Shown one piece after another: positions 1 through 15,378 of a stretch of 64,000 nt of DNA (position 1 is the first letter of the stretch; each line of letters begins with the position of its first letter). The notes under the pieces are model-generated. The model did not search any database. It was not told where the DNA came from and worked only from the letters and a program-made list of their open reading frames with translations. Location: NCBI RefSeq assembly GCF_014077005.1, contig NZ_JACGVC010000050.1, positions 1-64,000 of the forward strand, given 5' to 3'. This DNA is from Colwellia sp. MB3u-45 (GTDB lineage Bacteria > Pseudomonadota > Gammaproteobacteria > Enterobacterales > Alteromonadaceae). Position numbers and translations under genes: made by a program.

Positions 1-361
1 TGTGCGCAGAGAAAATGCATCTGGGCAAGACGCTTGATTGAGCAATAGCTGGCTATTGTGATTGAGAGCACCGTAGCCTTGGTGTATTTTAACCAGCACA
101 AGTGGGCAATAACTTAATGAAATTGATATAACTTAAACGGCAGCTATGAGTTTGTAAAGACATAGCGTTGTATTTATCCTGACAGATAACTGAGCCAACA
201 ATATAGTCTTTAACCTTTTTAAAAATTCAGATGGCAGAAGCTATTTACTCGATATAATCACTTTAGGGGCTAACCTATTACTTTGATTCAACGCCTTTCT
301 TATAATCTGCGATAAATTAAATATTGCCTATTCTCTGAGCGCTAAAGCGTTTGAACTCCCC
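1..361. other. left-edge intergenic stretch with one short palindrome
   Basis: No gene is recognisable. A 7-bp perfect inverted repeat (CAATAGC, TG, GCTATTG) lies at 43-58. A very similar palindrome (TAATAGC, CA, GCTATTA) with related flanks, GCTTGA before and GATTGA after, occurs at 3389-3404, so the two bracket the two genes between them. They may be REP-like units; nothing more can be shown. Confidence 0.4.
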
Positions 362-505
362 CTAATCCCTTGACAGAGCTTCAATAGGGTTCATTTTTGC
401 CGCATTACGGGCTGGAAGATAACCAAAAAAATACCTATGAGGCTCGAGCAAGCAGAAGCGGCTATTATGTCCTGCCACACTTGTAGCTGATAAAAAATGA
501 TGACA
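362..505 (-). pseudogene. C-terminal remnant of a MacB/FtsX-type ABC transporter permease
   Basis: Reading minus, the last 22 codons before a TAG at 362-364 give FFGYLPARNAAKMNPIEALS followed by RD, the typical C-terminal end of MacB-family permeases (last transmembrane helix plus PAR-A-x-x-P-IEALR). About 40 upstream codons (IIAASACSSLIGIF) are in another frame, so one base has been lost in the run of T residues near 427-433. No N-terminal part or partner ATPase is present. I infer a decayed, non-functional gene end. Confidence 0.6.
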
Positions 506-517
506 TTTAATCAGCTA

Positions 518-2173: not shown

Positions 2174-2280
2174 ACTGCTTTTTAAATACCTTTGATTAAA
2201 TACCTGATGATAATGTGCAATTATACTGTGATTGCTGATGTTATTCAGCAATCTTATTTTGGCTATTTCAACTTACTGTT

Positions 2281-3273
2281 TTACTGTAAACAACACTTTT
2301 TATATTTCTTGTTACTACCACACGGGCAAGGATCATTGCGGCCAGCCGTTGCTAATGAGCTTACGGGCACACTGTTCTCTAAAATGGTATTTTCGTCGTA
2401 CAAGATATTAGACAACAAACCGCCCTCGCCCATTAACGAATCAAATACATCAAGGTTGTCGTTTGAAAGGTTATCGCTTGAAAGGCTATCGATTGAAGGA
2501 TTGTCGAATACTTCATCATCTGAGCCATCACCTTCAGCCCAAGAGTTTAAGGTGTCAACAAGATTAAACTCTGTTTGAATAATGCCAGACTCAATCAACT
2601 TACGCCCATCAACACTTTGCCATGCTTTTACTTCATCTTGTTTAAAGCGGTATTCATCAAATACGTCTTTATCACATAAGCTAATAAACTGACTTTTAAG
2701 ATCATCAAGTTGATATTCGATACAAGAATCAGCTAATGCGCTCATTAAAAAACTACTGATTGAACTGGGTAAAGCCAAAAATGCGGCTAACCAAAGCGTA
2801 ATATGTTCACTTAATTCAGCTTTATCAATAGTGCCCACCTCGTATTGAGCAAATACCGCTTCCATAGCAGATGCTTTGCCATACATAGCTTGATGACCAT
2901 CAACAATATAGTCAGACAAGGCTTGTGTATTACCATTGGCGACATTATAAAATAAGGTTGATGTTAATTCAGTAATCGCATCACCAAACACCCCTTCAAT
3001 AGGCGTTAAAAACGAGTCACTGCACGAAAAAAGCTGTAAGCACTTTGACAGCGCAGGAGAATATTTTAATTCTGCTAATAATAAGGTGCCAAAAAATAAA
3101 ACGGCATTCTGCTCATCGGTTAGCGAACTATCATCTGCGACAAATTGATCTATTATCTGCTCTAATTCAGCATAAAATGCTGACCAATTCGTTTTAGCTA
3201 CGTCGAGCGCGGCAACAGGTAGTTCATTGTCATGTGCATTACCTATTACCAATAAAGCTTGTTCTAAATTCAT
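2281..3273 (-). CDS. DUF1186 / SEC-C motif protein
   Basis: A 330-aa mostly helical protein of the DUF1186 type ending in a SEC-C zinc-binding motif (GRNDPCPCGSNKKYKKCC, about residues 312-329), in which Cys-x-Cys and the terminal Cys-Cys bind zinc in SecA and many other proteins. An acidic, serine-rich linker (about residues 245-285) contains a short SL/NL-S-D/N-NL repetition. It is likely a cytoplasmic protein of unknown function; the SEC-C tail suggests ribosome, SecB or nucleic-acid contact but this is inference. It stands upstream of the radical SAM gene in the same direction, with about 100 bp between them. Confidence 0.8.
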   Translation of the reverse strand: MNLEQALLVIGNAHDNELPVAALDVAKTNWSAFYAELEQIIDQFVADDSSLTDEQNAVLFFGTLLLAELKYSPALSKCLQLFSCSDSFLTPIEGVFGDAITELTSTLFYNVANGNTQALSDYIVDGHQAMYGKASAMEAVFAQYEVGTIDKAELSEHITLWLAAFLALPSSISSFLMSALADSCIEYQLDDLKSQFISLCDKDVFDEYRFKQDEVKAWQSVDGRKLIESGIIQTEFNLVDTLNSWAEGDGSDDEVFDNPSIDSLSSDNLSNDNLDVFDSLMGEGGLLSNILYDENTILENSVPVSSLATAGRNDPCPCGSNKKYKKCCLQ

Positions 3274-3754
3274 GTAAATTCCGCGTTAAATAATCAATGA
3301 TGAGTGGCAAATGCCAAATGTTATGACCATTCAAAGTACGTAGATTTTAGTCGGATTAAAAATATTAACTACAAGGTACATGCTTGACTAATAGCCAGCT
3401 ATTAGGATTGAATGCAACAGGATAACGGGCTTTTTAAAGCGAATAAAACAAGAAATTTGAATGATGACGGGGGTATCTTAAACACTTCTTATTACCGTTA
3501 CCATGCAAAGCATCAGATTCAACCGAATTTTCATTTGATTTGCCACTATAACGTCCAAATTGCTCTTGTTTCGCTGCCATAAATTTAGCGTGCCAATTTA
3601 ACCAGAACACACACTCCTTGAAAAATGAACAACAAGGTTTAAGCCAACCTGACTTTATTTAGAATAACAATCATGACTTATAGGACTTTAGCTAGATATT
3701 TAGTACGATAGCTAGATATTTTACAGTGGTTTTTTAGCTTGTTCATTCAATAAA
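3274..3754. other. intergenic region at the distal end of the cassette array
   Basis: About 480 bp without a secure gene. It holds a palindrome at 3389-3404 and a short direct repeat of TAGCTAGATATTT near 3690-3720. A 48-codon minus-strand reading frame (3434-3580) starts with ATG but lacks a convincing ribosome site and resembles nothing I know, so I do not call it a gene. Confidence 0.4.
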
Positions 3755-3803
3755 AATAGCGTAGACGCAGCCAACCCTAATTTTTAGTTTAATATTTTGT
3801 TAA
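3755..3803 (-). other. degenerate attC half-site
   Basis: Read on the minus strand it begins TAACAAAATATTAAACT and continues with GTTGGCTGCGTCTACGCTATTTT, which follows the first half of the intact attC sites of this array (TAACAAGGCAATCAAACG, then GTTGGCTGCGTTTCGCTTCGC). The second half, ending GGCGTTA in the intact sites, is missing. It lies directly after the DTW gene, where the attC of that cassette would be. Confidence 0.5.
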
Positions 3804-3807
3804 GTTT

Positions 3808-4275
3808 TTAGCCATTAAATTGCTCAAATTTTAATGATAATTCTGCTGCCATTTTATCTTGTCCTTTAAGCCTTAATACTTCGATTATGCATTCGATGGT
3901 GCATAGGCCACCTTTAGGTTGATTGGCTCTCAGGTTATATAACGAAGCATTTGCCGTTTTCAAAGTGCATTGTGGCGCATTTTTTAAATACGAGCTCTGG
4001 TTGAAGATTTTATTTGATTCCTGCCATGTGCTATCAATAATAATAATGTTTTCATACTCTTCAATTGTTGGCCTTGATGCTGCAGACGATGATTCTGCCT
4101 TCGAATATAATAATACCGCCTCATTATTTTCTATGAGTCGAGTCAGGTCTTTATTAGGGTTTACTCTTTCCCAGATTATACGTTCAACAATTTCATTAGC
4201 ACTTTCTAGTGCCAGAGCGCCGGTATTAGTTGCCCTATGTAATTCACGCTCATGTGTAAGTAAAAATATTTTCAT
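3808..4275 (-). CDS. DTW domain protein (tRNA-uridine aminocarboxypropyltransferase-like)
   Basis: Contains the family signature IIIDSTWQES at about residues 78-87 (the D-x-T-W motif) and an N-terminal LLTHERELHRATNTG segment, which corresponds to the start of the SAM-binding fold of DTW proteins; relatives add a 3-amino-3-carboxypropyl group to uridine in tRNA. The protein is short (155 aa) and lacks the N-terminal Cys-rich zinc region of the longer members. The start lies only some 10 bases from the remnant of an IS end (4286-4311) and no good ribosome site is visible, so either this is a naturally short family member or its 5' end was replaced when the IS was lost. Confidence 0.75.
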   Translation of the reverse strand: MKIFLLTHERELHRATNTGALALESANEIVERIIWERVNPNKDLTRLIENNEAVLLYSKAESSSAASRPTIEEYENIIIIDSTWQESNKIFNQSSYLKNAPQCTLKTANASLYNLRANQPKGGLCTIECIIEVLRLKGQDKMAAELSLKFEQFNG

Positions 4276-4285
4276 TATTAGGTAT

Positions 4286-4311
4286 TGTTCCGCTTTATCG
4301 GGGGAAGATCA
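4286..4311. mobile_element. orphan terminal inverted repeat of an IS3-type element
   Basis: The 26 bases ending GGGGGAAGATCA match the terminal repeat of the complete IS3-type copy at 9934-11208 (outer end TGATCTTCCCCCG, then ACGGACAC) with a few differences. The rest of the element is gone. It abuts an attC half-site. Confidence 0.65.
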
Positions 4312-4334
4312 TTTTCCGTTTGAAGTTCTTGTTA
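4312..4334 (-). other. attC half-site cut by an IS end
   Basis: On the plus strand it reads TTTTCCGTTTGAAGTTCTTG then TTAG, identical over most of its length to the corresponding end of the intact site at 15781-15871. The other half is absent, replaced by the IS remnant. It belongs to the cassette with the 73-aa membrane protein. Confidence 0.7.
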
Positions 4335-4357
4335 GCATGCTTTACACCAAACTATTT

Positions 4358-4579
4358 TTATTTTGAATAAAGCCAATTGAAAAATTTTATCCAAATTTGA
4401 TAGAAGACTAAAATTGTAATAATTTTAATTACAAAATAAAGTGGGTCAAACGAATCAGGAAAAAAAAGATAATTAAAATTTAGCTTATAAAACGCAAATT
4501 CAGCCATAAAAAATGCAAAAATAAAAGCCAATACATTGGCTAGTTCAGAAGTAGGGTTTTGCCAAAAAGATTTAAACAT
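4358..4579 (-). CDS. small two-helix membrane protein, integron cassette gene
   Basis: About 73 aa with two hydrophobic stretches (roughly residues 14-33 and 45-64), the second followed by a Lys-Phe-Phe-Asn-Trp-Leu tail; an inner-membrane protein of unknown function. I place the start at the ATG preceded by AAGGA six bases upstream; the frame stays open nine codons further to a GTG inside the attC, which is unlikely to be used. The gene fills a cassette between two recombination sites. Confidence 0.55.
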   Translation of the reverse strand: MFKSFWQNPTSELANVLAFIFAFFMAEFAFYKLNFNYLFFPDSFDPLYFVIKIITILVFYQIWIKFFNWLYSK

Positions 4580-4596
4580 ATGCTTTCCTTGCATGC

Positions 4597-4691
4597 TAAC
4601 GCCCACTTAAGGGGCAAAATAGAGTTGGCTAAAATAGGTGAACGGAGTGAACAAAACAGCCAACTTTATTTTGTCCCTCTTTAAGTTGTTA
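4597..4691 (-). other. attC recombination site (95 bp)
   Basis: Minus strand: begins TAACAACTTAAAGAGGGAC and ends GCCCCTTAAGTGGGCGTTA, with imperfectly paired inner arms GTTGGCTG and AGCCAAC around a GTTCACTCCGTTCAC centre. This is the layout of chromosomal-integron attC sites such as the Vibrio VCR, whose end is GCCCCTTAGGCGGGCGTTA. Confidence 0.85.
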
Positions 4692-4703
4692 GGGCTAAAC
4701 GCC

Positions 4704-5140
4704 CTATTTAGATATACAATGCTTTTGAAAGCTACTATCAACAACATCTTTACTAAATTCAAAATCCATTTGAACCAAGGTTAAAACTGGTTGATTCGTT
4801 GTATTTTCCTTGGTAGGTTTATATTTCCATGTTGCTAATGAGGCTTGAGCGCTTTCATCAAATAGTCTTTTTGGATAAGATTTATTGATTTTATACTCTT
4901 GTACATCACCTTTTTCATTGATTTTTATAAGTAACTCTACACATCCAGAAATTTTTTTCATTGCTGCTTTTATTGGATATTTTGGGTTAACCCTTTCATT
5001 ATCTTCCAATATGTATCGAAAATACTTTGGTCATAATCATTTGTTAAATCTAAATACTCTGTTTTTTCTTGGTTAGTGTTTATCGATGAGCAGGAAATTA
5101 ACATTGATGAAAATGATAATATTAGTAATGTTTTTTTCAT
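4704..5140 (-). pseudogene. TonB C-terminal domain lipoprotein, frameshifted
   Basis: A lipoprotein start at 5140 (AAGGA before ATG; signal peptide with lipobox LISC) is open for 56 codons to a stop at 4970-4972. The TonB C-terminal-like domain (VNPKYPIKAAMKKISGCVEL at its start, YPKRLFDESAQASLATWKYKP further on) lies in a different frame from 5009 to 4704, with a stop just before it. The two parts fit one ancestral protein of about 145 aa: an indel between roughly 4985 and 5030 separates them. It is either a pseudogene or a sequencing error; translation from the internal TTG at 5009 cannot be excluded. Cassette gene. Confidence 0.7.
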
Positions 5141-5187
5141 TTTTCTATTCCTTTAGATGGATATGTCGCAGGCTAGAATTTTAGCCC

Positions 5188-5231
5188 TAACGCCCGCATA
5201 AACTGCGGAGTCAGATTTGATGCGTTTGTTA
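5188..5231 (-). other. short attC site (about 44 bp)
   Basis: Minus strand TAACAAACGCATCAAATCTG at one end and CAGTTTATGCGGGCGTTA at the other. The ACGCATCAAATC and the GTTTATGCGGGCGT arms can pair in part. It is far shorter than the neighbouring sites of about 90 bp and lacks their GTTGGCT arms, but it sits exactly between two cassettes. Confidence 0.6.
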
Positions 5232-5648
5232 TGTATTAATTGGAGGATTCTCTTCAAAGGCGGGTAATTCATGTGTTTCTTTAACCCAAGGAAGCATTCT
5301 TTTTGTCCAGCATTGAGCAGATGGCTTAATTAAGCTTTGATCATTTAAGCTGCCTGCCGCAAGTGCTGTGTAATTGGGAAGCCATGCAGAAGACTCGAAA
5401 ATATGTGTGCCGCATTCTGGGCAAAAAAACTTGCTCATAAGATTTCCAGAGTCGGTGGTTACTTTGAATTCTTTTAGCTTTCCTGTGATTGAAATATTCT
5501 TATCTTCAAACAGGCACATAGTTGCATAAGATGACCCAGTCCATTTTTGACATTCTAGACAATGACAAAGCATCGTTGCTTCTGGTTCGCTACTACATTG
5601 ATATGTTACTGATTCGCAAAGGCATCCGCCTTTTAATTTGTTATTCAT
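5229..5648 (-). CDS. GFA family (CENP-V/GFA domain) zinc protein
   Basis: A 139-aa single-domain protein with the family pattern of zinc cysteines: GGCLCESVTYQC near the N-terminus, LCHCLECQKWTGS at about 27-39, and FFCPECGTHIF at about 74-84. Relatives include glutathione-dependent formaldehyde-activating enzyme, though most small members have no known substrate. The fold is a compact beta protein binding one structural and one active-site zinc. The stop codon overlaps the start of the attC, as is common in cassettes. Confidence 0.85.
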   Translation of the reverse strand: MNNKLKGGCLCESVTYQCSSEPEATMLCHCLECQKWTGSSYATMCLFEDKNISITGKLKEFKVTTDSGNLMSKFFCPECGTHIFESSAWLPNYTALAAGSLNDQSLIKPSAQCWTKRMLPWVKETHELPAFEENPPINT

Positions 5649-5675
5649 TTTAATAGTACTCTAATATTGATATTG

Positions 5676-5769
5676 TCAACGTCCTGTTAAGGGGTAAATT
5701 TTAGTTGGCTAAAATGTAAAGCGAAACGGAACTAGCCAACTGTAATTTATCCCGCTTTAACAGCTTATA
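5676..5769 (-). other. attC recombination site
   Basis: Minus strand: TATAAGCTGTTAAAGCGGG at one end, CCCCTTAACAGGACGTTGA at the other, with GTTGGCTAG and TAGCCAAC inner arms. The GTTGACA end deviates from the GTTA of most sites here. Confidence 0.75.
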
Positions 5770-5784
5770 TGCCCAGTTTACCGC

Positions 5785-6012
5785 TCAACTTTTTGCGAAT
5801 AGCTTATTAAACAACTCTTCAGATTTTTTGAGCCCTTCATCTGTTAATACAACAGATTTAGCTTTACCAACGGGATCACAAATTAAACCTTTTTCATGTA
5901 ATCTCTTAGTCACTTCCCAGTCAATCTGTTTCCATGCTCGAAAGTGATCATGCAATGTGAGATACATTAAAGCTAGGGCTGCCTCATCTATTTTATTTTC
6001 ATCAATATCCAT
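5785..6012 (-). CDS. DUF6429 family protein
   Basis: Seventy-five residues starting MDIDENKIDEAALALMYLTL and continuing HDHFRAWKQIDW, LHEKGLICDPVGKAKSVVLT, then DEGLKKSEELFNKLF, which I recognise as the small DUF6429 family, probably a winged-helix-like fold; function unknown. The ATG at 6012 has GGAG six bases upstream and is preferred to the TTG at 6024. Single-gene cassette. Confidence 0.75.
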   Translation of the reverse strand: MDIDENKIDEAALALMYLTLHDHFRAWKQIDWEVTKRLHEKGLICDPVGKAKSVVLTDEGLKKSEELFNKLFAKS

Positions 6013-6035
6013 GATTAACTCCAAAACCCGAAGGG

Positions 6036-6188
6036 CATATAACGAACTTGTAAAATAACTCGTTTATTATGAATTCCCCCCTAAAATCGGGGTGCCAAAT
6101 GCATTACCTATATCGAGTAAATCGTCTACGGTGCGATACAGGAATACAAAGTATTAGTCGTTTTGGCTGAACTAGCTATTATACAGCC
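6036..6188 (-). repeat. 150-bp cassette leader repeat, copy 1
   Basis: About 150 bp between the attC at 6189 and the DUF6429 gene, repeated with roughly 85-90% identity at 6761-6911 upstream of the SRPBCC gene. Shared blocks include AATAACTCGTTTATTATGAA, CCAAATGCATTACCTATATC and GAGTAAATCGTCTAC. It contains no reading frame. It could be a promoter-bearing leader or an unusual recombination site; see findings. Confidence 0.7.
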
Positions 6189-6281
6189 TCAACGCCTACT
6201 TAAGCGGAAAAATATAGTTGGCTAAAATGTTGAACGGAGTGAAAACAGCCAACTATATTTTGTCCTTGTTGAACAGCTTAA
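6189..6281 (-). other. attC recombination site
   Basis: Minus strand from CTTAAGCTGTTCAACAAGG to CCGCTTAAGTAGGCGTTGA, with GTTGGCTGTTTT and TTTTAGCCAAC inner arms. Confidence 0.8.
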
Positions 6282-6292
6282 GTGATTACTTA

Positions 6293-6733
6293 TCAAGAAT
6301 GATCTATTTGTATGTCATTTGGAAAGGGGGTTCCCTTACCAGTTTCAAGCGCATCCTTGAGGCTGAGTAAGAATACTGCCCATTTAGTATTACAATGAGC
6401 CATAAAATCTGTCGTTTCATTCCAGTTTGAATGAGTAAACCTTACAAAGGTTTGATTCTCACCAGTTTCTAACTGAAATGAAATCTCTGTATCCATCCAT
6501 GATTCTGGTATATTACCCGAATGTTTCCAACATACAGTTTTATTTGGAATAAGTTTTGTAACCGTAAAATCTGGACCTCCACCGTTAAAACGAAATTTAA
6601 TCGTTGAGCCTTCCATTCCCGCTCCAGATATATCGTTAGTCCACCATTTTTTTAGACCATCATCTGTAGTTAATGCTTCATAGATTTTTTCAGGTAAAGC
6701 ATTAATACCAATTCGGTGATTTATATTAACCAT
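6293..6733 (-). CDS. SRPBCC / AHSA1-like protein
   Basis: A 146-aa START-like (SRPBCC) fold protein of the Aha1 C-terminal type: N-terminal INALPEKIYEALTTDDGLKKWW, central FRFNGGGPDFTVTKL, and C-terminal FMAHCNTKWAVFLLSLKDAL helix, all standard positions for the family. These small proteins bind hydrophobic ligands; no specific role can be assigned. The start is preceded by AGGAG (rc of ctcct at 6741-6745). Single-gene cassette carrying the 150-bp leader repeat. Confidence 0.8.
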   Translation of the reverse strand: MVNINHRIGINALPEKIYEALTTDDGLKKWWTNDISGAGMEGSTIKFRFNGGGPDFTVTKLIPNKTVCWKHSGNIPESWMDTEISFQLETGENQTFVRFTHSNWNETTDFMAHCNTKWAVFLLSLKDALETGKGTPFPNDIQIDHS

Positions 6734-6760
6734 AACAATCTCCTAAAGTTGAATAAGCAC

Positions 6761-6911
6761 ATAACGAACTTTTAGAATAACTCGTTTATTATGAATTCCT
6801 CCTAAAAATCGGGGTACCAAATGCATTACCTATATCGAGTAAATCGTCTACAGCGCGATACAGGAACACACAAATTTTAGTACTTTTGGCTGAATTAGTT
6901 ATTCTACAGCC
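6761..6911 (-). repeat. 150-bp cassette leader repeat, copy 2
   Basis: Second copy of the leader at 6036-6188. It ends at CTACAGCC, exactly where the IS1111-type element begins. In copy 1 the corresponding CTATTATACAGCC runs straight into the attC, which shows the uninterrupted arrangement. Confidence 0.7.
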
Positions 6912-7015
6912 ACAGACACAATGACTCCCCACAAGGTGCTAGCCTCTAAACGTGGGTTAGTTTTACAAACCAGCGCCATAATTAGTGTGTCAAACAACTA
7001 AAAAAAGAGGCTAGC

Positions 7016-8170
7016 ATGATAAAACATAACATACTTTTCATTGGCTTAGATACTCATAAAACATTTACTGAAGTCGCTTATATTGAAGACCAACGTGGCG
7101 CTAAATCAACGCATCTAGGTAAAATACTCAGTAATAAAGCCGCCTTTACAAAACTAGCGCGACAATTAGTCTCAAAATACCCAGATGCCACACTTCATTT
7201 TGTTTACGAAGCTGGCCCTTGTGGCTATTGGATTTACCGCTTGCTCACCAGTCTTAATCATTGCTGCTATGTCATTGCACCTTCGCTTATCCCTAAAAAA
7301 CCAGGAGAGAAAATCAAAACCGATAAACGTGATGCGCTCAAACTTGCCAAGCTGCTCAAGTCTGAAGATTTAACCCCTATCTATGTCCCTGAGCCCGAAG
7401 ATGAAGCCTTACGTGATTTATCACGAGCTCGTGAAACCGGCATGAAAGACTTAAAAGATGCTAAATATCAACTTAAAGCACTCTTGTTACGTAACAACAT
7501 TAACAGCAAAATAAAAGATAACTGGTCATTACAGTATTTGCGTTGGCTCGCTGAATTAGTGCTACCGCATCCTTGTTAGCAAATTGTTTTGCAAGAAGCG
7601 GTTTCAACCATTACTGAGCGACTAAAACGCTTAAAAAGGCTGGATAATGAATTAACACATCAAGTAAAAAACTGGCGGTTTTATCCTGTAGTTAAAGCGA
7701 TACAGGCTCTCCGTGGTGTGAGGTTATTAGTGGCCACAGGAGTGATTGCCGAATTAGGTGACTTATCACGATTCGACCATCCCAGAAAATTAATGAGTTA
7801 CCTTGGTCTGGTACCAAGTGAATATTCAAGTGGCGATAAACGCCACTTAGGTGCTATTACCAAATGCGGTAATAGCCGTGTAAGACGACTACTGGTCGAA
7901 GGTGCACACTCGTACAAACACAACGCCGATATATCAAAAGAAATGCAATTAAGGCAGGAAGGATTAAGTAAAAAAATCATCGATATGGCATGGCAAGCAC
8001 AATTGAGGTTATGCAGACGATATAATCGACTCATGCACAAAGGCAAACATCGTAATGTGGTCGTTACGGCCATCGCCAGAGAAATGATCGCTTATATTTG
8101 GGCTATTTCTCGCGAGGTAGTGCTACCAAAGATTGATGTGAAGCTAAGAATATCGAGAGTACCTGCATGA
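7016..8170 (+). pseudogene. IS1111-group transposase with in-frame stop
   Basis: Two reading frames, 7016-7579 and 7589-8170, are in the same phase and separated only by TAG at 7577-7579 (TGT TAG CAA). Together they give a 384-aa IS110-family transposase: RuvC-like N-terminal domain with GLDTHK, YEAGPCGYW and DKRDALKLAKLL carrying the DEDD residues, and a C-terminal Tnp_20 domain with ATGVIAELGDLSRF, LGLVPSEYSSG and GNSRVRRLLVEGA. A single CAG-to-TAG change would explain the break. A ribosome site (AGAGG) precedes the ATG. Probably inactive. Confidence 0.85.
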
Positions 8171-8189
8171 ATAACTGTCTAAAAAAAGG

Positions 8190-8410
8190 TGTTGAGTTAG
8201 CGCATGGGATCAAGCATAGGGTGTGGCACAACCACCGACGGCGTTAGGATGGCAATAGCCTAGCGGCTATTGAACCACGAACATAGACTGAAGACAGGTG
8301 CCACGACGAAATGAGTAAGGTAGGCGCTGCTAACTAATAGGTTAGTAATCCACGAATATCAGCATGATAACCGACGAAATTACTTGCTTCATTCTATGCG
8401 TTAACTCACT
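8190..8410 (+). ncRNA. candidate bridge RNA of the IS1111-type element
   Basis: The non-coding 3' end can fold: GAGTTAGCGCAT (8194-8205) pairs with ATGCGTTAACTC (8396-8407) with one G-T pair; GTGGCAC (8223-8229) pairs with GTGCCAC (8298-8304); CAATAGCC (8253-8260) pairs with GGCTATTG (8265-8272). The two inner stems enclose an internal loop whose 5' strand is GGCGTTAGG (8240-8248), matching the attC core GGCGTTAG and complementary to the plus-strand junction sequence. A second loop follows with weaker pairing. Bridge RNAs of IS110-family elements have this layout; its identity as such is inferred. Confidence 0.5.
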
Positions 8411-8488
8411 TAATACTAAAAGTGAATACAATGGTGCTTAAATTAATGAACAAGGATCAGTGTATTTAACTTGACGTGGGGAGTCATA

Positions 8489-8538
8489 CCAACGCCCCAT
8501 TAAGAGGCTAAATTTAGTCCTACTTAATTGCCTTGTTA
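8489..8538 (-). other. short attC site (about 50 bp) next to the IS
   Basis: Minus strand starts CTAACAAGGCAATTAAGTAGG and ends TAGCCTCTTAATGGGGCGTT. The arms GGCAATTAAGTAGG and CCTCTTAATGGGGC pair imperfectly. The GTTGGCT inner arms of the long sites are missing. The gene upstream reads its last codons through this site. Confidence 0.7.
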
Positions 8539-8858
8539 GGTGTTAATAGCGATGTAGTTAAAATCTCTATTTTATCGGTTGCATTTGAACAATATTTGCT
8601 AAACGCATTACTGAGGGCTAACTCGCTAGTTCGTTGATAGTTGAATGAATAATTAATTAACTGGTTAACTTCATTCTGTGAGGGCAGTTTTCTTAAAAAG
8701 CTTTTTAATGTATTAGCTTCATTTATATTTCTCGATAATTCATGTGCAACGTAACATTGCGCTAACTCTTTTGTAAGATCGTAGTTTTCCTCGTTGCTTT
8801 TAGCTAATGCATTTGGAATGTATGTAATTACCGCTAATAAAAGTATGTATTTAGTCAT
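8520..8858 (-). CDS. small exported protein, cassette gene
   Basis: A 112-aa protein with a clear N-terminal signal peptide (MTKYILLLAVITYIPNALA, cleavage after ALA), then a helical, mildly acidic mature part with two cysteines (CYVAHEL, KYCSNATDK) that could form a disulfide. No family is recognised. AAGGA lies ten bases upstream of the ATG. Its stop codon TAG lies inside the attC, so the last residues NKAIK are encoded by the recombination site. Confidence 0.65.
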   Translation of the reverse strand: MTKYILLLAVITYIPNALAKSNEENYDLTKELAQCYVAHELSRNINEANTLKSFLRKLPSQNEVNQLINYSFNYQRTSELALSNAFSKYCSNATDKIEILTTSLLTPNKAIK

Positions 8859-8921
8859 TATAAAAGTCCTTATTTAAAAATTCATTATTTAGTATAGAAC
8901 AATTTGAATGTTAATAAACAC

Positions 8922-9002
8922 CAACGCCCCAATAAGGGGCTAAAATAAGCGACGCAGGAGCAAACAGCCAACTGTTTTTTGTCCTGCTTTAATGACTTGT
9001 TA
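8922..9002 (-). other. attC recombination site
   Basis: Minus strand CTAACAAGTCATTAAAGCAGG to TAGCCCCTTATTGGGGCGTTGG, with a GTTGGCTGTTTGCTCC centre and GCGTCGCTTATTTTAGCC; about 81 bp. Confidence 0.8.
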
Positions 9003-9009
9003 GCCGTAT

Positions 9010-9309
9010 TTAACTCTGTAGAAGAAATCTACGAAGATCTCGCTCATGACGCATGACATGTAAAATATAAACTTTGTCACTATCCACTTTATAGAAAATA
9101 CGACAAGGATTAACATTAACTTCACGGTAATTTAAGTTGCTTAATTCAAGTGGCCTTTTACCTGATTCAGGATGATCTTCTAGCCTAGATATTTTATCAA
9201 ATATTTTGTGAGTCAATTTCTTAGCCGCATCAATATTACTTAAAGCAATATACTCAGCAATATCGTTTAAATCATCAAGAGCTGGAGATGTCCAAATTAT
9301 TTCAGCCAT
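9010..9309 (-). CDS. RelE/ParE family toxin
   Basis: A 99-aa type II toxin: MAEIIWTSPALDDLNDIAEY start, HPESGKRP loop, NPCRIFYKVDSDKVYILHVMRHERD towards the end, which is the ParE/RelE fold pattern with conserved Arg, Tyr and His-Glu-Arg region. It would act on gyrase (ParE) or ribosome-bound mRNA (RelE); the sequence alone does not settle which. Its start overlaps the antitoxin stop by 13 bp, so the pair is translated as one unit. Toxin-antitoxin cassettes are known to stabilise large integron arrays. Confidence 0.85.
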   Translation of the reverse strand: MAEIIWTSPALDDLNDIAEYIALSNIDAAKKLTHKIFDKISRLEDHPESGKRPLELSNLNYREVNVNPCRIFYKVDSDKVYILHVMRHERDLRRFLLQS

Positions 9310-9554
9310 TTGCCCATTTTCTCTTTTGCTTCTTGATTCGAGAATGTATTACCGTTTTTAATTGCTTGCTCACCGCGTGCAACACCCTCAAGAATTGCCA
9401 TTCGTTGTTGCATAAATTCATAATCTTCAACATCAACTAAATAAGCTGATGGTTGGCCATGCTCAGTAATTAACACTGGTTCTTTAGATATGTGGAGATC
9501 AGCTAAAATTTTGGTCGCTTGACGCTTAAGTGTCGTAACAAGTTCAACTCTCAT
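9297..9554 (-). CDS. Phd/YefM family antitoxin
   Basis: An 85-aa antitoxin with the Phd/YefM N-terminal DNA-binding fold (RVELVTTLKRQATKILADLH, PVLITEHGQPSAYLVDVEDYEFM) and an extended, charged C-terminal tail that would wrap the toxin. It is the first gene of the pair and presumably represses its own promoter. AGGAT stands just upstream of the ATG, which is within the cassette's own leader. Confidence 0.85.
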   Translation of the reverse strand: MRVELVTTLKRQATKILADLHISKEPVLITEHGQPSAYLVDVEDYEFMQQRMAILEGVARGEQAIKNGNTFSNQEAKEKMGKWLK

Positions 9555-9830
9555 GGTAAATCCTATTTAGAACTCAAATAATGTATCACTATAGTATCAC
9601 ACAAACTTGAGGTTACAACTATACGGCTAACGAGCCTGTAGAATTACTCGTTTTTATTATAATTATTTAATCAAAATACTCTAACTGGATTATTTTCTTT
9701 TAACAATCAAAAACGTTTACGTTTTTGGCGATTTTAATTTTTGCATTGTTAAATATTAAATAATGGGGAATGTCTTTCTTACTCTATGTTTTTAGACGGT
9801 TTTAATGGTGTGATGATGGGATTTCAAGCC
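9555..9830. other. cassette leader and IS1182-type end without gene
   Basis: Bases 9626-9665 repeat the first 40 bases of the 150-bp leader (TAACGAGCCTGTAGAATTACTCG, cf. TAACGAACTTGTAAAATAACTCG). After that the similarity stops. A short hairpin AAAAACGTTTACGTTTTT lies near 9709-9726. The remainder probably belongs to the non-coding end of the IS1182-type remnant that follows. Confidence 0.4.
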
Positions 9831-9933
9831 CTAATACAGGCTAATTCTTAACTTCTCAATGTTATGAACAAGGCAATACAGTTGCCATTGAGTATTCACT
9901 TTTTCTTGTCCGCGCAACGTGAATTTATTCATG
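9831..9933 (-). pseudogene. C-terminal remnant of an IS1182-family transposase
   Basis: Minus-strand translation up to the TAG at 9831-9833 gives MNKFTLRGQEKVNTQWQLYC, then LVHNIEKL, which is the conserved C-terminal segment of IS1182-family transposases (K-FTLRG-EKV-QW-LYCLVHNI-K). Everything upstream has been cut off at the left end of the IS3-type element at 9934. Confidence 0.75.
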
Positions 9934-9967
9934 TGATCTTCCCCCGATAAAACGGACACATTTTTTA

Positions 9968-10861
9968 TCACGCCGCTATAGCTTCATATTCCATCGGTGA
10001 ACAATAGTTTATACCTGAATGCATCCTCAACGCATTGTAGTATTTGTTGATGTAACTGCCAAGCGTTCCCCGTAATTCCTTATCGCTTTTAAAAATATTA
10101 CCGCGAATAACTTCTGTTTTCATTGAATGAAAAAATGACTCCATATGGGCATTGTCCGTACATTTCCCTGCTCGACTCAAGCTATGAATTATCCCATGTC
10201 GTTTCAATACTTTTTGATAAACTTGCCCTCGATATTCTACACCTCTATCGGTATGGAGCATTAAATCACCTGGCGGTTTACGTTTCTTAATCGCATTTTT
10301 TAGTGTCCGTTTGGTGACTTCCATGGTTCTATTTTTATCTAAACTCCAACTAATAATACGCCGTGAGTATAAATCCATGATGACCGATAAATAACGCCAT
10401 ACGCCTTTCACTTTCACTTTCAAATACGTGACATCGGCTACCCATACTTTATCTTTAACCAATGGCACTTCACCATCAGGTCGTAAATTTTTTCCTGTGG
10501 TAAGAAAGCGCTTATAAAGCGCAGAGCGTGTTGTCACTCTCATCACTCTAGCAACTAGCCCAAGCGCACGATACAAGCGTTCAACACGTTTCTTACCGAT
10601 ATTGTATCCTTGCTTTTGTAGGGTCTTAAATATGCGAGGACTACCATAGCGCCCTTTATACTCGGTGAATATTTGTTGGATTTTTTGTTTAAGCTCCACA
10701 TCTTCTATCGCACGGGCACTCGGTTGACGTTCACGCCAATCGTAATAGCCACTTTTAGATACATCAAAAAATTCCAGTAACCTCACGACCTTTATATCGG
10801 CTCTGAGTTTTTCGATGCATCGATATCGGCTTGATGTTCTTCCCCAAGAAACCTTTGCCAC
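9968..10861 (-). CDS. IS3-family transposase OrfB (DDE catalytic part)
   Basis: A 297-aa HTH_21 plus rve integrase-core protein. DDE residues: VWADVTYLKV (first Asp), LHTDRGVEYRG (second Asp) and AHMESFFHSMKTE (Glu). N-terminal FDVSKSGYYDWRERQPS and YGSPRIFKTL are typical of OrfB. It begins at a GTG that overlaps the slippery run in orfA, so the active transposase is likely an OrfAB fusion. It looks complete. Confidence 0.9.
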   Translation of the reverse strand: MAKVSWGRTSSRYRCIEKLRADIKVVRLLEFFDVSKSGYYDWRERQPSARAIEDVELKQKIQQIFTEYKGRYGSPRIFKTLQKQGYNIGKKRVERLYRALGLVARVMRVTTRSALYKRFLTTGKNLRPDGEVPLVKDKVWVADVTYLKVKVKGVWRYLSVIMDLYSRRIISWSLDKNRTMEVTKRTLKNAIKKRKPPGDLMLHTDRGVEYRGQVYQKVLKRHGIIHSLSRAGKCTDNAHMESFFHSMKTEVIRGNIFKSDKELRGTLGSYINKYYNALRMHSGINYCSPMEYEAIAA

Positions 10862-11166
10862 TTTTTTAGGATATACAGCTCCTCCTTGAGTTGTTTGTTT
10901 TCGCGTTCAAGTTGTTGCTCTTTGGTGAGCACTTTTTTGGTTTTTTTTTGACCCGCTACTTTTTTACGTTTATCCACCACAATGATCCCTTCACGATACT
11001 CTTTTCGCCATCGTGACATCATAAATGGGTGTATGTCGAGTTTTTCAGCAACGGATTTTATGGTGACGCTGACAACAAAACTCAGTTGTACAGCGTTGAC
11101 TTTAAAGTCGTTTGAATACTTCCAAGTACGCCTTGGATTGTTGTACTTTGGCATAGAACACCTCAT
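10792..11166 (-). CDS. IS3-family transposase OrfA
   Basis: A 124-aa helix-turn-helix protein (YSNDFKVNAVQLSFVVSVTI, VAEKLDIHPFMMSRWRKEYREG) followed by a leucine-zipper-like coiled coil (LTKEQQLERENKQLKEELYILKK). It binds the IS ends. A classical AAAAAAG slippery heptamer at 10861-10867 (minus strand) in its last quarter allows a -1 shift into orfB. Confidence 0.9.
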   Translation of the reverse strand: MRCSMPKYNNPRRTWKYSNDFKVNAVQLSFVVSVTIKSVAEKLDIHPFMMSRWRKEYREGIIVVDKRKKVAGQKKTKKVLTKEQQLERENKQLKEELYILKKWQRFLGEEHQADIDASKNSEPI

Positions 11167-11208
11167 CTTTAGTTAGATTTTGGTGTCCGTTAAAGCGGGG
11201 GAAGATCA

Positions 11209-11231
11209 TCACCTGCTTGAATGGCTTGTTA
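11209..11231 (-). other. attC half-site cut by the IS3-type element
   Basis: Plus strand CACCTGCTTGAATGGCTTG then TTAT is the outer end of an attC (compare CCTGCTTTAATGACTTGTTA at the intact site 8922-9002). The other half is missing. It is the attC of the cassette with the DUF2306-like gene. Confidence 0.7.
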
Positions 11232-11241
11232 TGCTCTGTAT

Positions 11242-11895
11242 CTATTGACTCAACTTACCACTTAAAAGAGTAGAACCCTTCCCAATTACATCTTTTCTTT
11301 TGTCAAACCACTTCGTAAATAATACGCGAATTAGCCAATAAAAAATTATTACAATTAACAAATAAATCGGTAAGTTTGCATCAATGAAATTAGGCCATTT
11401 ATCTGATGTATTCGCAACAAAGGAAAGTACCGCTCCTAGTAATGCATAACACATACGCCACAGATGTCGCGCAATACGATGAGCACCGGATATTCCACCA
11501 CGTATAATCATATTCAAATCGAGAAGTGCTGCAAGTAAAGCAACACTTCCAAATATATAAAACATAGTAACCATGAAGCCTGGTTCTGAAGTGATTGCAG
11601 CATAAAAGAAATTCGCACTTATAACTGAAATGACAATAAACGCTACTATGTCAAAAACACCTATTTTCTTTTCTGGCATCAGAACTATAACCCATGCTGT
11701 TGAAGCGAAGTACACAGATGAAATAGCGATCGTAGGGTCATCGGCAAAATAGGCCCCACTTCCTGCCATTAGTAACAATGAAAAGAAAAACAAATTACCA
11801 CTATACCTATGTAATTTTTCTCCTTTAGAGAAGATCAAAGCGCCTATACCAAATAATAGTACAAATGAACCTGCGATGATGTGAAACAAAAGCAT
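11242..11895 (-). CDS. DUF2306-like multi-pass membrane protein
   Basis: A 217-aa protein with about six or seven hydrophobic helices. It starts MLLFHIIAGSFVLLFGIGAL and contains KGEKLHRYSGNLFFFSLL and AHRIARHLWRMCYALLGAVLSF, the histidine-bearing helices characteristic of the DUF2306 family of putative inner-membrane proteins. Function unknown. It is the only gene of its cassette. Confidence 0.7.
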   Translation of the reverse strand: MLLFHIIAGSFVLLFGIGALIFSKGEKLHRYSGNLFFFSLLLMAGSGAYFADDPTIAISSVYFASTAWVIVLMPEKKIGVFDIVAFIVISVISANFFYAAITSEPGFMVTMFYIFGSVALLAALLDLNMIIRGGISGAHRIARHLWRMCYALLGAVLSFVANTSDKWPNFIDANLPIYLLIVIIFYWLIRVLFTKWFDKRKDVIGKGSTLLSGKLSQ

Positions 11896-11953
11896 AATAA
11901 TTCCCTTTAATAAACTTTAGATAATATAAACCTGACCATCAGGCTTAAGAGCA

Positions 11954-12047
11954 TAACGCCTCACTAAGAGGCAAAAAATTGTTGGTTAAAATTAGCGACG
12001 AAGGAGCAAAAAGCCAACTGTTTTTTGTCCTTTTGAGTGACTTGTTA
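11954..12047 (-). other. attC recombination site
   Basis: Minus strand CTAACAAGTCACTCAAAAGG to GCCTCTTAGTGAGGCGTTA, with GTTGGCTTTTTGCTCCTTCG centre; about 94 bp. Confidence 0.85.
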
Positions 12048-12058
12048 GCATGATGTCC

Positions 12059-13084
12059 TTAAGTCTCAACCGAATTATTCTTTCCTAGCTGGATCTTTAA
12101 CGCATCTCTAATTTTGTACAGAGTTGATTTATTGCCGTCACTAGACATTAGTATTATTGTATAGTCGTTTTTAAAATCAGAATGTTTGATTGTGTGATGG
12201 CTAGGATTAGAACCATCATGCTCCCAATAGACAATACTTCCATGTTTATCGTTGTAAAACTTCCCAAAGTCAAAGTAAGCGCGATTACGCTTCCCGGATA
12301 ATTCATCACCTAGCAAGGTCTTTTTTATCTTCTCGATGGGCAGAAGTAAGGAACCCCTTAAGGCAGTTTCAAATTTTAACAAGTCGAGTGGTGTAACATA
12401 TAAAGTCACCCCATTCACAGCAGTTGGATAGTCACCTGTTACTTTTAACTTGGAAAGATTATTAGCATCTACTTGAAAATATGAATCAGTCATTCCTGCA
12501 ACATCGAAAATAAACTCTTTAGCAAAATTAGAATAAGTGTCGCCCGTTATTCTCTCTACAATCAAAGCTCGCACAACTACATTTAAATTTGTATAAAGAT
12601 AATCATTTCCAGGTTCGAAAGCTAGAGTGCTATTTTTCATCTGCTTTATCACATCGGAAGTATCAATATATTTTTCCCATTTGACCTTAGGTAAACCTGA
12701 AGTATGAGTAAGTATATGCTCTACAGTTATATTTTTTGCCCAAAAAGGAAAACCTGGTATATAGTCAGAAATGCTGTCTTCATAACTTAATTTCCCTTGC
12801 TCAACGAGCTGCATAATCGATATGGTAGTAAACTCTTTACCTACTGAGCCTGGGCAAAACAAGTGTTTGTTTGATATTGGGGTTGTCCTATCATCATCGG
12901 AAAACCCTATATTTTCATGAAAAATCATACGTCCATCTTTACTTATCAAAACGGTGCCATTAAACCCAGTATTTGCAATCGTTTCTTCAACAACATTATG
13001 ATATTGAATATCTTTTTCGGATTCTACCGCAAGAACAATTGGGCAAAAAACTATCATCCATATTAATAAAAACATTTGTCTCAT
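12059..13084 (-). CDS. serine hydrolase of the beta-lactamase (class C/PBP-like) family
   Basis: About 341 aa with a signal peptide (MRQMFLLIWMIVFCPIVLA) and the active-site set of the family: S-x-x-K (SVGK, about residues 80-83), Y-x-N (YTN, about 164-166), the VEHILTHTSGLP segment and a HDGS box near residue 280 in place of KTG. Relatives are esterases, D-peptidases or beta-lactamase-like enzymes in the periplasm; resistance cannot be inferred. I prefer this start because AGGA lies eight bases upstream; two earlier ATGs at 13102 and 13093 overlap the neighbouring attC end. It is the largest cassette gene here. Confidence 0.8.
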   Translation of the reverse strand: MRQMFLLIWMIVFCPIVLAVESEKDIQYHNVVEETIANTGFNGTVLISKDGRMIFHENIGFSDDDRTTPISNKHLFCPGSVGKEFTTISIMQLVEQGKLSYEDSISDYIPGFPFWAKNITVEHILTHTSGLPKVKWEKYIDTSDVIKQMKNSTLAFEPGNDYLYTNLNVVVRALIVERITGDTYSNFAKEFIFDVAGMTDSYFQVDANNLSKLKVTGDYPTAVNGVTLYVTPLDLLKFETALRGSLLLPIEKIKKTLLGDELSGKRNRAYFDFGKFYNDKHGSIVYWEHDGSNPSHHTIKHSDFKNDYTIILMSSDGNKSTLYKIRDALKIQLGKNNSVET

Positions 13085-13104
13085 ATTGAACATCCTAATC
13101 ATGC

Positions 13105-13199
13105 TAACGCCGCAATAAGCGGCTAAGTAATAGTTGGCTAAAATGTGTAGCGAAGCGAAACGCAGCCAACTATTGCGTGTCCGTTTGATTGCCTTGTTA
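13105..13199 (-). other. attC recombination site
   Basis: Minus strand CTAACAAGGCAATCAAACGG to AGCCGCTTATTGCGGCGTTA, centre GTTGGCTGCGTTTCGCTTCG. Identical over its whole length to the site at 15400-15494. Confidence 0.9.
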
Positions 13200-13487
13200 G
13201 TTGCTGGTAGTTAAAACCACTAATATTACAATAAGTTATCATGTTAAAGAGGCAGGAGGAAGAACCAAAGAACCTTTCCGCAATAGACACCTAAACATGA
13301 ACTTTGAGCCTTAAAAAAACTAAAGCGATTAAAACTATTAAACTGCGAAAGGCGAAAACTGGGTTGGGAAAAAAGGAAGCTAGATTGAACGACACTTCCA
13401 TTGCCAAACCAAAGAATTGAACCAAACGCAAAACTATGCGATTTGCACTAAACGATAAATAAAATCATTCGATTTAGTGCGGACAAC
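13200..13487 (-). repeat. gene-less integron cassette, copy 1
   Basis: About 290 bp between two attC sites with no plausible gene. It is nearly identical to 15495-15780. A hairpin lies at the cassette 5' end (minus strand GCACTAAATCGA paired with TCGTTTAGTGC, one bulge). A 35-codon minus frame exists here but is frameshifted in the other copy (20 versus 21 bases near 13340), which argues against a protein. It may carry a promoter or a small RNA. Confidence 0.75.
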
Positions 13488-13577
13488 TAACGCCCTGTTA
13501 AGGGGCAAATTGTAGTTGGCTATAATGTGAGCGGAGCGAAACAGCCAACTGTAATTTGTCCCGCTTGAACAGCTTAT
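13488..13577 (-). other. attC recombination site bordering an IS110 element
   Basis: Minus strand from TATAAGCTGTTCAAGCGGG to GCCCCTTAACAGGGCGTTA with GTTGGCTGTTTCGCTCC centre. The lipoprotein cassette on the far side of the IS (15121) has only an R''-like end (GTTGTTATA) next to its stop, so this body is most simply its attC, split by the IS. Confidence 0.75.
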
Positions 13578-13624
13578 AGTTCGACCAAGCCACTTAATTC
13601 AATAAAGTAACTTACTATTAGATT

Positions 13625-13715
13625 AGGTGGAACATGCTTCTGTTGGTTACGAATATTGAATTTCAAACATCCAATGTTTCTAACAAGACGTTCGAGCCAA
13701 CAGAGCAACTCATTT
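13625..13715 (+). ncRNA. candidate bridge RNA of the IS110-group element
   Basis: CTGTTGG (13640-13646) pairs with CCAACAG (13697-13703), and AAACAT (13665-13670) pairs with ATGTTT (13674-13679) as an apical hairpin. They enclose an internal loop with TTACGAATATTGAATTTC on the 5' side and CTAACAAGACGTTCGAG on the 3' side. CTAACAAG is also how most attC sites here begin on the minus strand, i.e. it is complementary to CTTGTTAG on the plus strand. The stem-loop is visible; the role as bridge RNA is inferred from family knowledge. Confidence 0.4.
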
Positions 13716-13819
13716 CAAAACGCATACTCAGGGATCGCCCACCACGACTATCTATAAGACCTGCGAGAAACGAGATTTAAGCACATTCCATCTATAACTT
13801 TACTCGCTGGAGCATCAAA

Positions 13820-15082
13820 ATGAAAGAATATAACGTCGATGATTTCGCTGCCCTTATTGGGATCGATTGGGCTGACAAAAAACATGATATTTGTGAGCAC
13901 CCAAAAAACACTGAACAATATCACTACACCGTTATAAAACATAAACCCGAAGCGCTTCAAAAATGGGCAATGGATCTTAAATGGCGTTATCCCGATCAGA
14001 AAATTGCTATTGTGTGTGAACTTAAAAAAGGTCCTTTAATTTATGCGCTCGCAAAATATGACCACCTCGTCTTATTTACGGTGAATCCATCCGCGGTCGC
14101 AAATTACCGCAAAGCATTCACGCCTAGCGGCGCAAAAAATGACCCGACCGATGCATTCATACAAGTTGAAATGATTAAATTTCACATAGATAAACTCTCA
14201 GTGATAGTACCTGAATCAACATCAATGAGAGCATTAGCGCAACTGGTTGAGTATCGTCGTAGTTTAGTACAAGATAGCGTCGATTTATCAAATAAAATAA
14301 CCGCAACTTTGAAGAACTACTACCCTCAAGCGCTTGAATGGTTTAAAGAAAAAGATACCTTTATCTTTTGTGATTTCATCAGTCAATGGCCATCGCTCAC
14401 CGCAGTTAAAAAAGCCAGAAAGCAAACCTTATTAGACTTCTTTAATCGTCACAACTCACATTATGAAACCGTCAATAATGCTCGATTACTTAGCATTAAA
14501 GCAGCCGTTCCGTTAACCGAAGATGAAGGTGTAATAGCCCCTAATCAACTGTTAGTGGAAGTGCTTATCGCACAATTCAAGGTGTTGCTTACGGGTATTG
14601 AACAATTGGATAAAGCAATAAAACAGCTGTATAAAAAACAACAAGACAAGGCTATTTTTGATAGTTTACCTGGCGCAGGTCCACAACTAGCACCGCGCTT
14701 ATTAGTCGCTTTTGGGCACAATAGAGAACGTTATACGGATGCTTCACAGATGCAGAAGTATGCGGGTATTGCACCCGTTATTGAAAGCAGCGGTAAAAAG
14801 ACATGGACACATTGGCGCTATAGTTGTCCTACTTTTTTAAGGCAAACGTTTGTTGAATGGGCTGGTTTTTCGATACGATATTCATTCTGGGCGAAGGCTT
14901 ATTATGAGCAACAAAAAAGTAAAGGAAAGCCACATAATAGTATTATAAGAGCACTGGCTTTCAAGTGGATCAGGATCGTATTTAGGTGCTGGAAGACCAA
15001 TACTCCTTACGACGAATCAAAATATTTAGAAGCACTGAAACGAAGAGGTTCGCCGCTGTTAAAATTTGCAATAAATAGCTAA
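13820..15082 (+). CDS. IS110-family transposase (IS110 group)
   Basis: Full-length 420-aa recombinase: N-terminal RuvC-like DEDD domain with IGIDWADKKHDI, VCELKKGPLIYAL and GAKNDPTDAFIQVEM, a coiled-coil linker, and a C-terminal Tnp_20 domain with FDSLPGAGPQLAPRLLVAFG, MQKYAGIAPVIESSGKKTW carrying the catalytic Ser region, and FVEWAGFSIRYSFWAKAYY. GGAG precedes the ATG by nine bases. It cuts DNA as a guide-RNA-directed serine/DEDD recombinase. No disruption is seen, so it may be active. Confidence 0.9.
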   Translation: MKEYNVDDFAALIGIDWADKKHDICEHPKNTEQYHYTVIKHKPEALQKWAMDLKWRYPDQKIAIVCELKKGPLIYALAKYDHLVLFTVNPSAVANYRKAFTPSGAKNDPTDAFIQVEMIKFHIDKLSVIVPESTSMRALAQLVEYRRSLVQDSVDLSNKITATLKNYYPQALEWFKEKDTFIFCDFISQWPSLTAVKKARKQTLLDFFNRHNSHYETVNNARLLSIKAAVPLTEDEGVIAPNQLLVEVLIAQFKVLLTGIEQLDKAIKQLYKKQQDKAIFDSLPGAGPQLAPRLLVAFGHNRERYTDASQMQKYAGIAPVIESSGKKTWTHWRYSCPTFLRQTFVEWAGFSIRYSFWAKAYYEQQKSKGKPHNSIIRALAFKWIRIVFRCWKTNTPYDESKYLEALKRRGSPLLKFAINS

Positions 15083-15120
15083 TTTAAACTTGTTGTCCAC
15101 CTCAGGGCGTGTTGTTATAT

Positions 15121-15378
15121 TTATTTATTACTTGCATCACTGATATGTTTTTTTAAAGATTCTACTTGCGCTTCACAAGACTTTCTTTTATCACCTGTCA
15201 TATCTGAACATTTTCGAGAAGAGTCTCCGTCATTAGTAATCATATCTTCAGTAGCTGCTATTGCTAAACATACAGGGGTTAAGGATCCGCAACTAGCCGC
15301 TGAATTATAACTTGGATTAGAACTACAACCGCTTAATCCGACAACCCACAATAAAGAAAGTAATTTGGTAAATGACAT
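15121..15378 (-). CDS. small lipoprotein, cassette gene
   Basis: About 85 aa with a lipoprotein signal peptide and lipobox (LLWVVGLSGC, Cys at about residue 18). The mature part has four further cysteines (ASCGSLTPVC, RKCSDMTGDKRKSCEAQ). The C-terminal half resembles the other lipoprotein cassette at 15875 (pattern SS-KC, D-R/K-x-C, a Q-V stretch, and SS/SN-K end), so the two may be related. The ATG at 15378 has GGAG nine bases upstream; the TTG at 15393 is less likely. Confidence 0.65.
   Translation of the reverse strand: MSFTKLLSLLWVVGLSGCSSNPSYNSAASCGSLTPVCLAIAATEDMITNDGDSSRKCSDMTGDKRKSCEAQVESLKKHISDASNK

Follow-up and report, generated by a model that had tools for sequence, protein, structure and literature searches.

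What directs an insertion sequence to one particular end of an integron attC site? The question is raised by a cassette array in the window analysed here, a 64-kb stretch of contig C50 within a 4.17-Mb genome, where an IS1111-type element is inserted at the GTTRRRY end of an attC, as in the IS1111-attC group. Judging from comparison with its relatives, we consider it very probable that the element is a member of this group and that a downstream seekRNA would present two guides, one reading T|AACGCC and the other ACAT| (bars mark the insertion point). The attC-end pattern has eight matches in the window, all at 4.6-16.2 kb, against 0.12 expected, and the cassette genes around the element lie on the minus strand. 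A complete integron integrase is encoded on another contig (C25:19545-20492, 445 bits) and an integrase fragment lies on C50 itself at 122656. The array also holds an ORF with rve and HTH_21 domains (9968-11166), which we take to be IS3-like and which is overlapped on its upstream side by a smaller ORF. In a scan of window positions 1-20000 at the Rfam gathering threshold the sole match was a tRNA gene; a repeat of about 120 bases, seen by eye in several copies at 17080-17480, resembles the stretch around that gene.

The preliminary description had placed an element at 6912-8538, exactly at the attC junctions. The element is real and does lie at the GTTRRRY end, but alignment with relatives gives the narrower limits listed in Table 1: the attC itself had been included on the right, and two bases of the left flank had been missed. 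These limits follow from the inverted repeats and from the conserved ends of the relatives (T|AGACA..A and CATACC|AAC). The left junction is CTACAGCCAC|AGACACA, with C as the last flank base where T is usual, and the right flank is attC, with AACGCCCC at 8491. Alignment thus shows an element with sub-terminal inverted repeats, ends conserved across relatives and extensions outside the repeats of 7 bp on the left (AGACACA) and 3 bp on the right (ACC). A 3-bp right extension beside sub-terminal inverted repeats is a feature of the IS1111 family. So is a 7-bp left extension, according to the excerpted text of a study of seekRNAs (PMC11187229). The transposase ORF pieces match Pfam PF01548 (9e-18) and PF02371 (1.8e-20), that is, DEDD_Tnp_IS110 and Transposase_20, and the gene, remarked on earlier as broken, is interrupted by one in-frame stop; the present copy is unable to make an uninterrupted transposase, and another copy would have to supply one. 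That stop falls in a CTTGTTAG octamer (7572-7579), whose letters are also those of the attC end that the IS110-type element described below would read; the match is probably due to chance. Altogether the host genome has four places matching the IS1111-type element, this one included; the other three are a full-length copy on contig C28 (75% identity, 391-aa ORF) and two truncated ones. The closest named relative found is from Colwellia sp. (L005, 96% over 187 aa).

Table 1. Positions in the window of the features discussed, with strand and supporting evidence where given.
Feature	Position	Strand	Evidence or remark
IS1111-type insertion sequence, 1577 bp	6914..8490	+	ends aligned with relatives
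Left sub-terminal inverted repeat ATGACTCCCCAC	6921..6932	+	
DEDD transposase gene, broken by in-frame stop 7577-7579	7016..8170	+	two same-frame ORFs
Putative seekRNA/bridge RNA target-binding domain	8219..8308	+	covariation in 44 and 46 sequences; model R1
Outer stem GTGGCAC / GTGCCAC	8223-8229 / 8298-8304		
Putative top-strand (T) guide CGGCGTTA	8239..8246	+	faces target +7 to -1; guide-flank covariation at +3, +4, +5, +7
Apical hairpin CAATAGCC / GGCTATTG	8253-8260 / 8265-8272		
Putative bottom-strand (B) guide ACAT, same sense as target -4 to -1	8281..8284	+	guide-flank covariation at -2, -4
Second RNA domain, hairpin 8330-8335/8340-8345	8309..8385	+	hairpin covaries
Right sub-terminal inverted repeat GTGGGGAGTCAT	8476..8487	-	
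attC with insertion in its GTTRRRY end	8491..8543	-	attC-end pattern and cassette gene strand
IS110-type element, same array, at opposite (RYYYAAC) end of another attC	13576..15113	+	
Putative T guide TAACAAG of IS110-type element	13681..13687	+	in upstream bridge RNA, about 13640-13785
IS110-type transposase gene, 420-aa ORF	13820-15082		
tRNA gene	17482-17569		

Downstream of the transposase gene lies a long non-coding region (8171-8475) with a conserved RNA fold, which is a feature of the IS1111 family. The two stems described earlier and the motif GGCGTTAGG at 8240-8248 are all found there. The 320-nt non-coding end folds better than all of 100 shuffles (z -4.21) and the first RNA domain (90 nt) better than 198 of 200 (z -2.74); the second domain alone, folded as a single sequence, does no better than its shuffles (z -0.50). 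The covariation check proposed with the preliminary description was run, and comparison of relatives shows an RNA structure kept through change: in 44 distinct sequences, that of the window included, the outer stem, the apical hairpin and the hairpin of the second domain have 97.8% of 873 cells paired and two-sided changes at 14 of 20 pairs, amounting to 148 cells against a shuffled mean of 42.5, and none of 500 shuffles scored as high on any of five measures. Sliding the helix partners by one to three columns brought pairing down to 27-47%, a comparison that favours the real register because the structure was derived from the same 44 sequences. The alignments began from 82 sequences (the window, L002 and 80 loci), of which 7 were too short and 6 were excluded as having the RNA outside the stretch taken, although one of these six (L080) later turned out to have an RNA; the remaining 69 gave 53 distinct sequences. 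Alignment A1 was built from 46 of these and alignment A2 from 44, insertions or truncations keeping the others out. When genomes sampled from the order and from the family were searched with a covariance model of the first domain, 14 of 295 and 66 of 395, respectively, had a match. The two samples overlap, G000 and G263 being matched genomes in each, and a few of the matches are weak, with E near 1e-4. Two smaller family-level surveys centred on other hits comprised just 11 and 12 genomes and gave matches in 3 and 4. In two relatives (L020 and L047) the guide loop is interrupted, between GGGCG and TTAGG, by some 45-47 inserted bases that include CCTACATGGATGTAGG, and a similar break in the profile alignment is seen in L105, L228 and L230; L023, L025 and L032 share an insertion (CAAAATT.TCAGGAACAATTTTG...) within the second RNA domain. 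That second domain is possibly the donor-binding half, and its ATATCAG (8356-8362) resembles the circle junction ATACC|AG.

We propose that the downstream non-coding end would be transcribed into a seekRNA, the IS1111 form of bridge RNA, which would bind the DEDD transposase. Two short guides would be exposed in its internal loop: GGCGTTA, which would pair with T|AACGCC on the target's top strand, and ACAT, which would pair with the bottom strand in the left half of the target (ACAT|). In these genomes many attC sites have T|AACGCC as their GTTRRRY end plus spacer, so that sequence and not fold would bring the element to attC. Transcription, the RNA-protein complex and a circular intermediate of the element we infer by analogy with published relatives. 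The preliminary description had taken the loop as the target guide; what we retain of that proposal is GGCGTTA (8240-8246), to which a second guide, ACAT, reading the left half of the target, has to be added. In the present copy GGCGTT pairs at all six positions with the AACGCC of its own right flank, as the claimed complementarity to the target would have it; the left flank, CCAC, agrees with the B guide in just 2 of 4 positions, with C at -1. The motif GGCGTTAGG occurs twice in the window against 0.27 expected, and since 4 of 100 shuffles also reach two, it is weak evidence by itself and the relatives carry the case.

Comparison of relatives shows a conserved stem-loop whose guides match both target strands, the top-strand match coming first, as in IS1111 types. 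The 224 profile hits, in 220 loci, came down to 177 distinct insertions once copies at the same site had been merged and hits with no end read at all set aside; each count omits positions where there is a gap or the flank is too short, and some insertions with mis-read or damaged ends (flanks such as CCAATA and AGGGTA) were kept. As far as these sequences tell, guide and flanking DNA change together over the 177 insertions. Where at least six bases of right flank were read, 126 of 165 insertions have AACGCC, and where both flanks were read, 107 of 137 have T|AACGCC, with T at -1 in 134 of 137. The comparison of loop with target at other insertions, also suggested earlier, came out as the guide reading would have it: elements with a GGCGTTA loop lie at an exact AACGCC in 123 of 151 cases (28 are not exact), and variant loops fit their own sites better in 7 of 10. 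Position by position, target +3 is T for both elements whose guide asks for T and for 1 of 169 others (L108); +4 is A in 3 of 5 with the matching guide against 7 of 160 others, and T in 2 of 2 against 3 of 163; +5 is T in 2 of 2 against 11 of 163. At +7 the support is weak (C in 41 of 75 against 29 of 82), and target +1 and +2 are invariant and -1 nearly so, which makes them untestable by co-change. The B guide, on the 3' side of the loop, takes the forms GAACAT, GAGCAT, GAACCT and others across the family; it goes with C at -2 (11 of 14 against 26 of 130, p 1.8e-5, uncorrected) and with G at -4 (21 of 63 against 11 of 74), shows no co-change at -3 over the 177 insertions (72 matches, 71.2 expected) and is invariant at -1. 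The Fisher tests behind these comparisons assume independent insertions, same-genome ones included, whereas the guide changes represent few events, and their p values are uncorrected. At +5 and +6, flank bases other than C that face a guide G are T in 28 of 35 cases (17 of 22 at +6 and 11 of 13 at +5), as G-T wobble pairing would allow; the sequence background of attC could also account for this.

Insertions with a guide other than GGCGTTA, and with six flank bases read, number ten. The element's own guide fits better than the standard one in seven (L146, L147, L201, L076, L053, L038 and L040), equally in two and worse in one. L053 (guide GAAGTTA) lies at AACTTC and L076 (AAAGTTA) at AACTTT, each with a fit of 6/6, and the variant guide of L038 fits its flank at 4/6. 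L052 and L045, both with GGTGTTA and both at AACTTC, fit at 4/6, no better than the standard guide would, and for L211 (GTCGTTA) the standard guide would fit better; L078 has the standard guide and is located at AACTTT. A count of attC core types around the variant guides, asking whether guides track the attC type of the host, gave nothing clear. One genome, G651, provides a strong example. It has six copies, and the five full-length ones compared differ from one another by 1 to 6 of 1573 bases. Four copies carry GGCGTTA, three of them at AACGCC (L112, L145 and L142, the last with its left end not read) and one at AACACT (L141), and the flanks of all four fold strongly (z -4.0 to -8.1). L147 and its sister L145, itself at T|AACGCC, are separated by 2 differences in 1573 positions, and one of these falls in the guide, turning GGCGTTA into GGCATTA; L147 is inserted at T|AATGCT between pieces of a UvrD-type helicase gene (Pfam matches above cut-off on both sides). 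L146, one base away from L147, has the same GGCATTA guide, is inserted at T|AATGTC and separates two pieces of a gene, each with a weak OMPP1/FadL match that stays below the Pfam cut-off. G651 represents one guide change and two insertions, and is a strong example rather than a statistic. Two copies with the standard guide also lie at T|AACGCC in other settings: L158 in a lysR-type gene, with HTH_1 on one side and LysR_substrate on the other, and L153 in a flank devoid of fold signal (z -0.08). These two show that insertion does not require an attC.

An alternative is that the transposase would recognise attC as a folded, single-stranded hairpin, the match with the loop being incidental. Such recognition has precedent, as group IIC introns use the attC fold. 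They are also reported at attC in the excerpted text of a study of Shewanella integrons (PMC9229058), and 141 of 161 right flanks here have a fold z-score below -2. This score is a rough measure, based on mononucleotide shuffles and on the best of up to five lengths, and L158 and L147, in coding genes, also reach -3.25 and -2.91, so that it fails to separate them from attC. It replaced two attempts at detecting attC in the flanks, both poor: a 7-nt arm detector called 46 of 171 flanks attC-like, with some long flanks mis-placed, and an arm-alignment detector put 73 of 161 above its 95% control, many of the rest resembling attC by eye. Recognition of a fold, however, does not account for the exact linear core that L158 has in its lysR-type gene, for L147 and L146 standing at T|AATG in a uvrD and a FadL-like gene with their guide changed to match, or for the flanks of L146 and L153, which have no fold signal (z -0.04 and -0.08). 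Guide letters, moreover, co-vary with flank letters, and we regard fold recognition with an incidental loop match as very improbable.

Two further alternatives concern the motif itself. GGCGTTA might be no guide at all but a remnant of the target, such as a captured piece of attC, that the element keeps for other reasons: it equals the attC end, and the window has a second GGCGTTAGG. Against this, GGCGTTA occupies a constant position in the alignment of relatives, within the loop of a structure that covaries, and changes in the motif go along with changes of the insertion site; we give the idea almost no credence. Alternatively, the guide might be the entire 9-mer GGCGTTAGG, as the preliminary description implied in calling the whole motif complementary to the target. 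All nine bases are able to pair with CCTAACGCC, and C is found at -2 in 37 of 145 sites. The T guide nonetheless shows no co-change at -2 (37 matches against 48.8 expected) or at -3 (72 against 72.6), so the last two G of GGCGTTAGG are not guide, and it is the B guide that co-changes at -2; elements with GGCGTTATG in its place occupy the same kind of site. We would allow a nine-base guide only a slight chance. The reading that we prefer remains that of two short guides, GGCGTTA and ACAT, addressing the two sides of the junction.

The same array holds a second element, of IS110 type, at the opposite (RYYYAAC) end of another attC, with junctions GAACAGCTT|ATAGTT ... GGGCGTGTT|GTTATAT. It is flanked by two stretches (13106-13488 and 15401-15782), each an attC plus cassette of about 380 bases, that by eye are almost identical. 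Among elements with at least 62% protein identity, 22 of 23 end in GGGCGTGTT|GTTA, the exception (L276) being partial, and by a simple pattern the left flank has an attC arm in 14 of the 18 elements with a left end read; the exceptions are three copies in G340 and L252, which the pattern missed though its flank resembles attC by eye. The region upstream of the transposase gene folds (z -2.47) and carries TAACAAG, complementary to the attC end at which the element lies. This candidate T guide matches the right flank at 6/6 positions in all 18 members of the clade, itself included. In 18 more distant IS110 relatives with other guides and targets, 98 of 108 positions match against 70.5 when shuffled, with none of 5000 shuffles as high; in both groups of 18 the guide was located by its constant spacing from TTCGA, an anchor picked with the sequences already in view, and same-genome copies were counted separately. 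The 44 IS110 elements comprised the 36 in the test, 2 that were skipped and 6 without the region. A longest-common-string test on the IS110 outgroup, which the anchored test replaced, had given weak results (own 5.9 and 5.6, shuffled means 5.3 and 5.0), as several of the left ends had been called wrongly. When a B-before-T order of matches was examined, GAATTTCAA was found to resemble the left flank only partly. We think it likely that attC is attacked at both ends in this one array by two RNA-guided IS lineages, the downstream RNA of the IS1111 type reading GTTRRRY (T|AACGCC) and the upstream RNA of the IS110 type reading RYYYAAC (CTT|GTTA) through TAACAAG, and that the IS1111 guide drifts by single letters, possibly off attC and into ordinary genes as in G651. 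Should the IS110-type clade be confirmed, integron arrays would have been reached by RNA-guided elements at least twice, making them a good place to study the evolution of guides.

IS1111-attC elements reportedly target one attC end, as the present element does, according to Tetu and Holmes (2008) and likewise Post and Hall (2009). The preliminary description had offered an account of this preference at the level of RNA, and it was right in substance: that an RNA guide explains the choice of attC is already published for ISKpn4 and ISPst6, which, in the excerpted text of Siddiquee et al. (2024), target one attC end and make seekRNAs complementary to both target strands (PMC11187229). The same excerpts predict such a seekRNA for ISPa25 too and include a natural case of redirection, between ISEc11 and ISXne4 (PMC11187229). 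What natural copies add is a readable code of which target letters go with each guide letter, and a case in which one natural guide base change goes with leaving attC. In the open-licence literature we found no paper on a single-letter natural guide change, nor one that places an IS110-type element at the RYYYAAC end, and the excerpted Shewanella integron study found no IS interrupting attC (PMC9229058).

The present element shares with ISKpn4 and ISPst6, as excerpted, the IS1111 type, the attC-end target, an RNA downstream of the transposase gene and the order of matches, top strand before bottom; the peak forms of their RNAs are 82 and 86 nt (PMC11187229). It differs from them in host and sequence, its RNA being known from sequence alone and its transposase gene interrupted. 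Durrant et al. (2024), in the portion drawn on here, locate the bridge RNA of IS1111 elements at the right end and predict it there in 93.0% of IS1111s (PMC11208160). From that portion, IS621 and the IS110/IS1111 bridge RNAs carry their guides in internal loops, as the present RNA would, whereas in IS110 types including IS621 the RNA is in the left end and here it would be in the right, with a putative donor loop (PMC11208160). An RNA domain 88.9% identical to the present one is carried by an IS110-family element (L284) on a Klebsiella pneumoniae plasmid (NZ_CP095763.1), where it adjoins the arr-3 cassette of a class 1 integron at T|AACGCC. Its T guide is GGTGTTA, one wobble away from perfect pairing with AACGCC, in place of the GGCGTTA seen here, and its B guide, ATCT, has the same letters as the left flank of that element, ATCT, whereas the marine elements mostly have ACAT or GCAT; this is a single case. 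The attC-guide mechanism is thus already published and the present element is a further member, for which the comparison of natural copies sharpens the reading of the guide.
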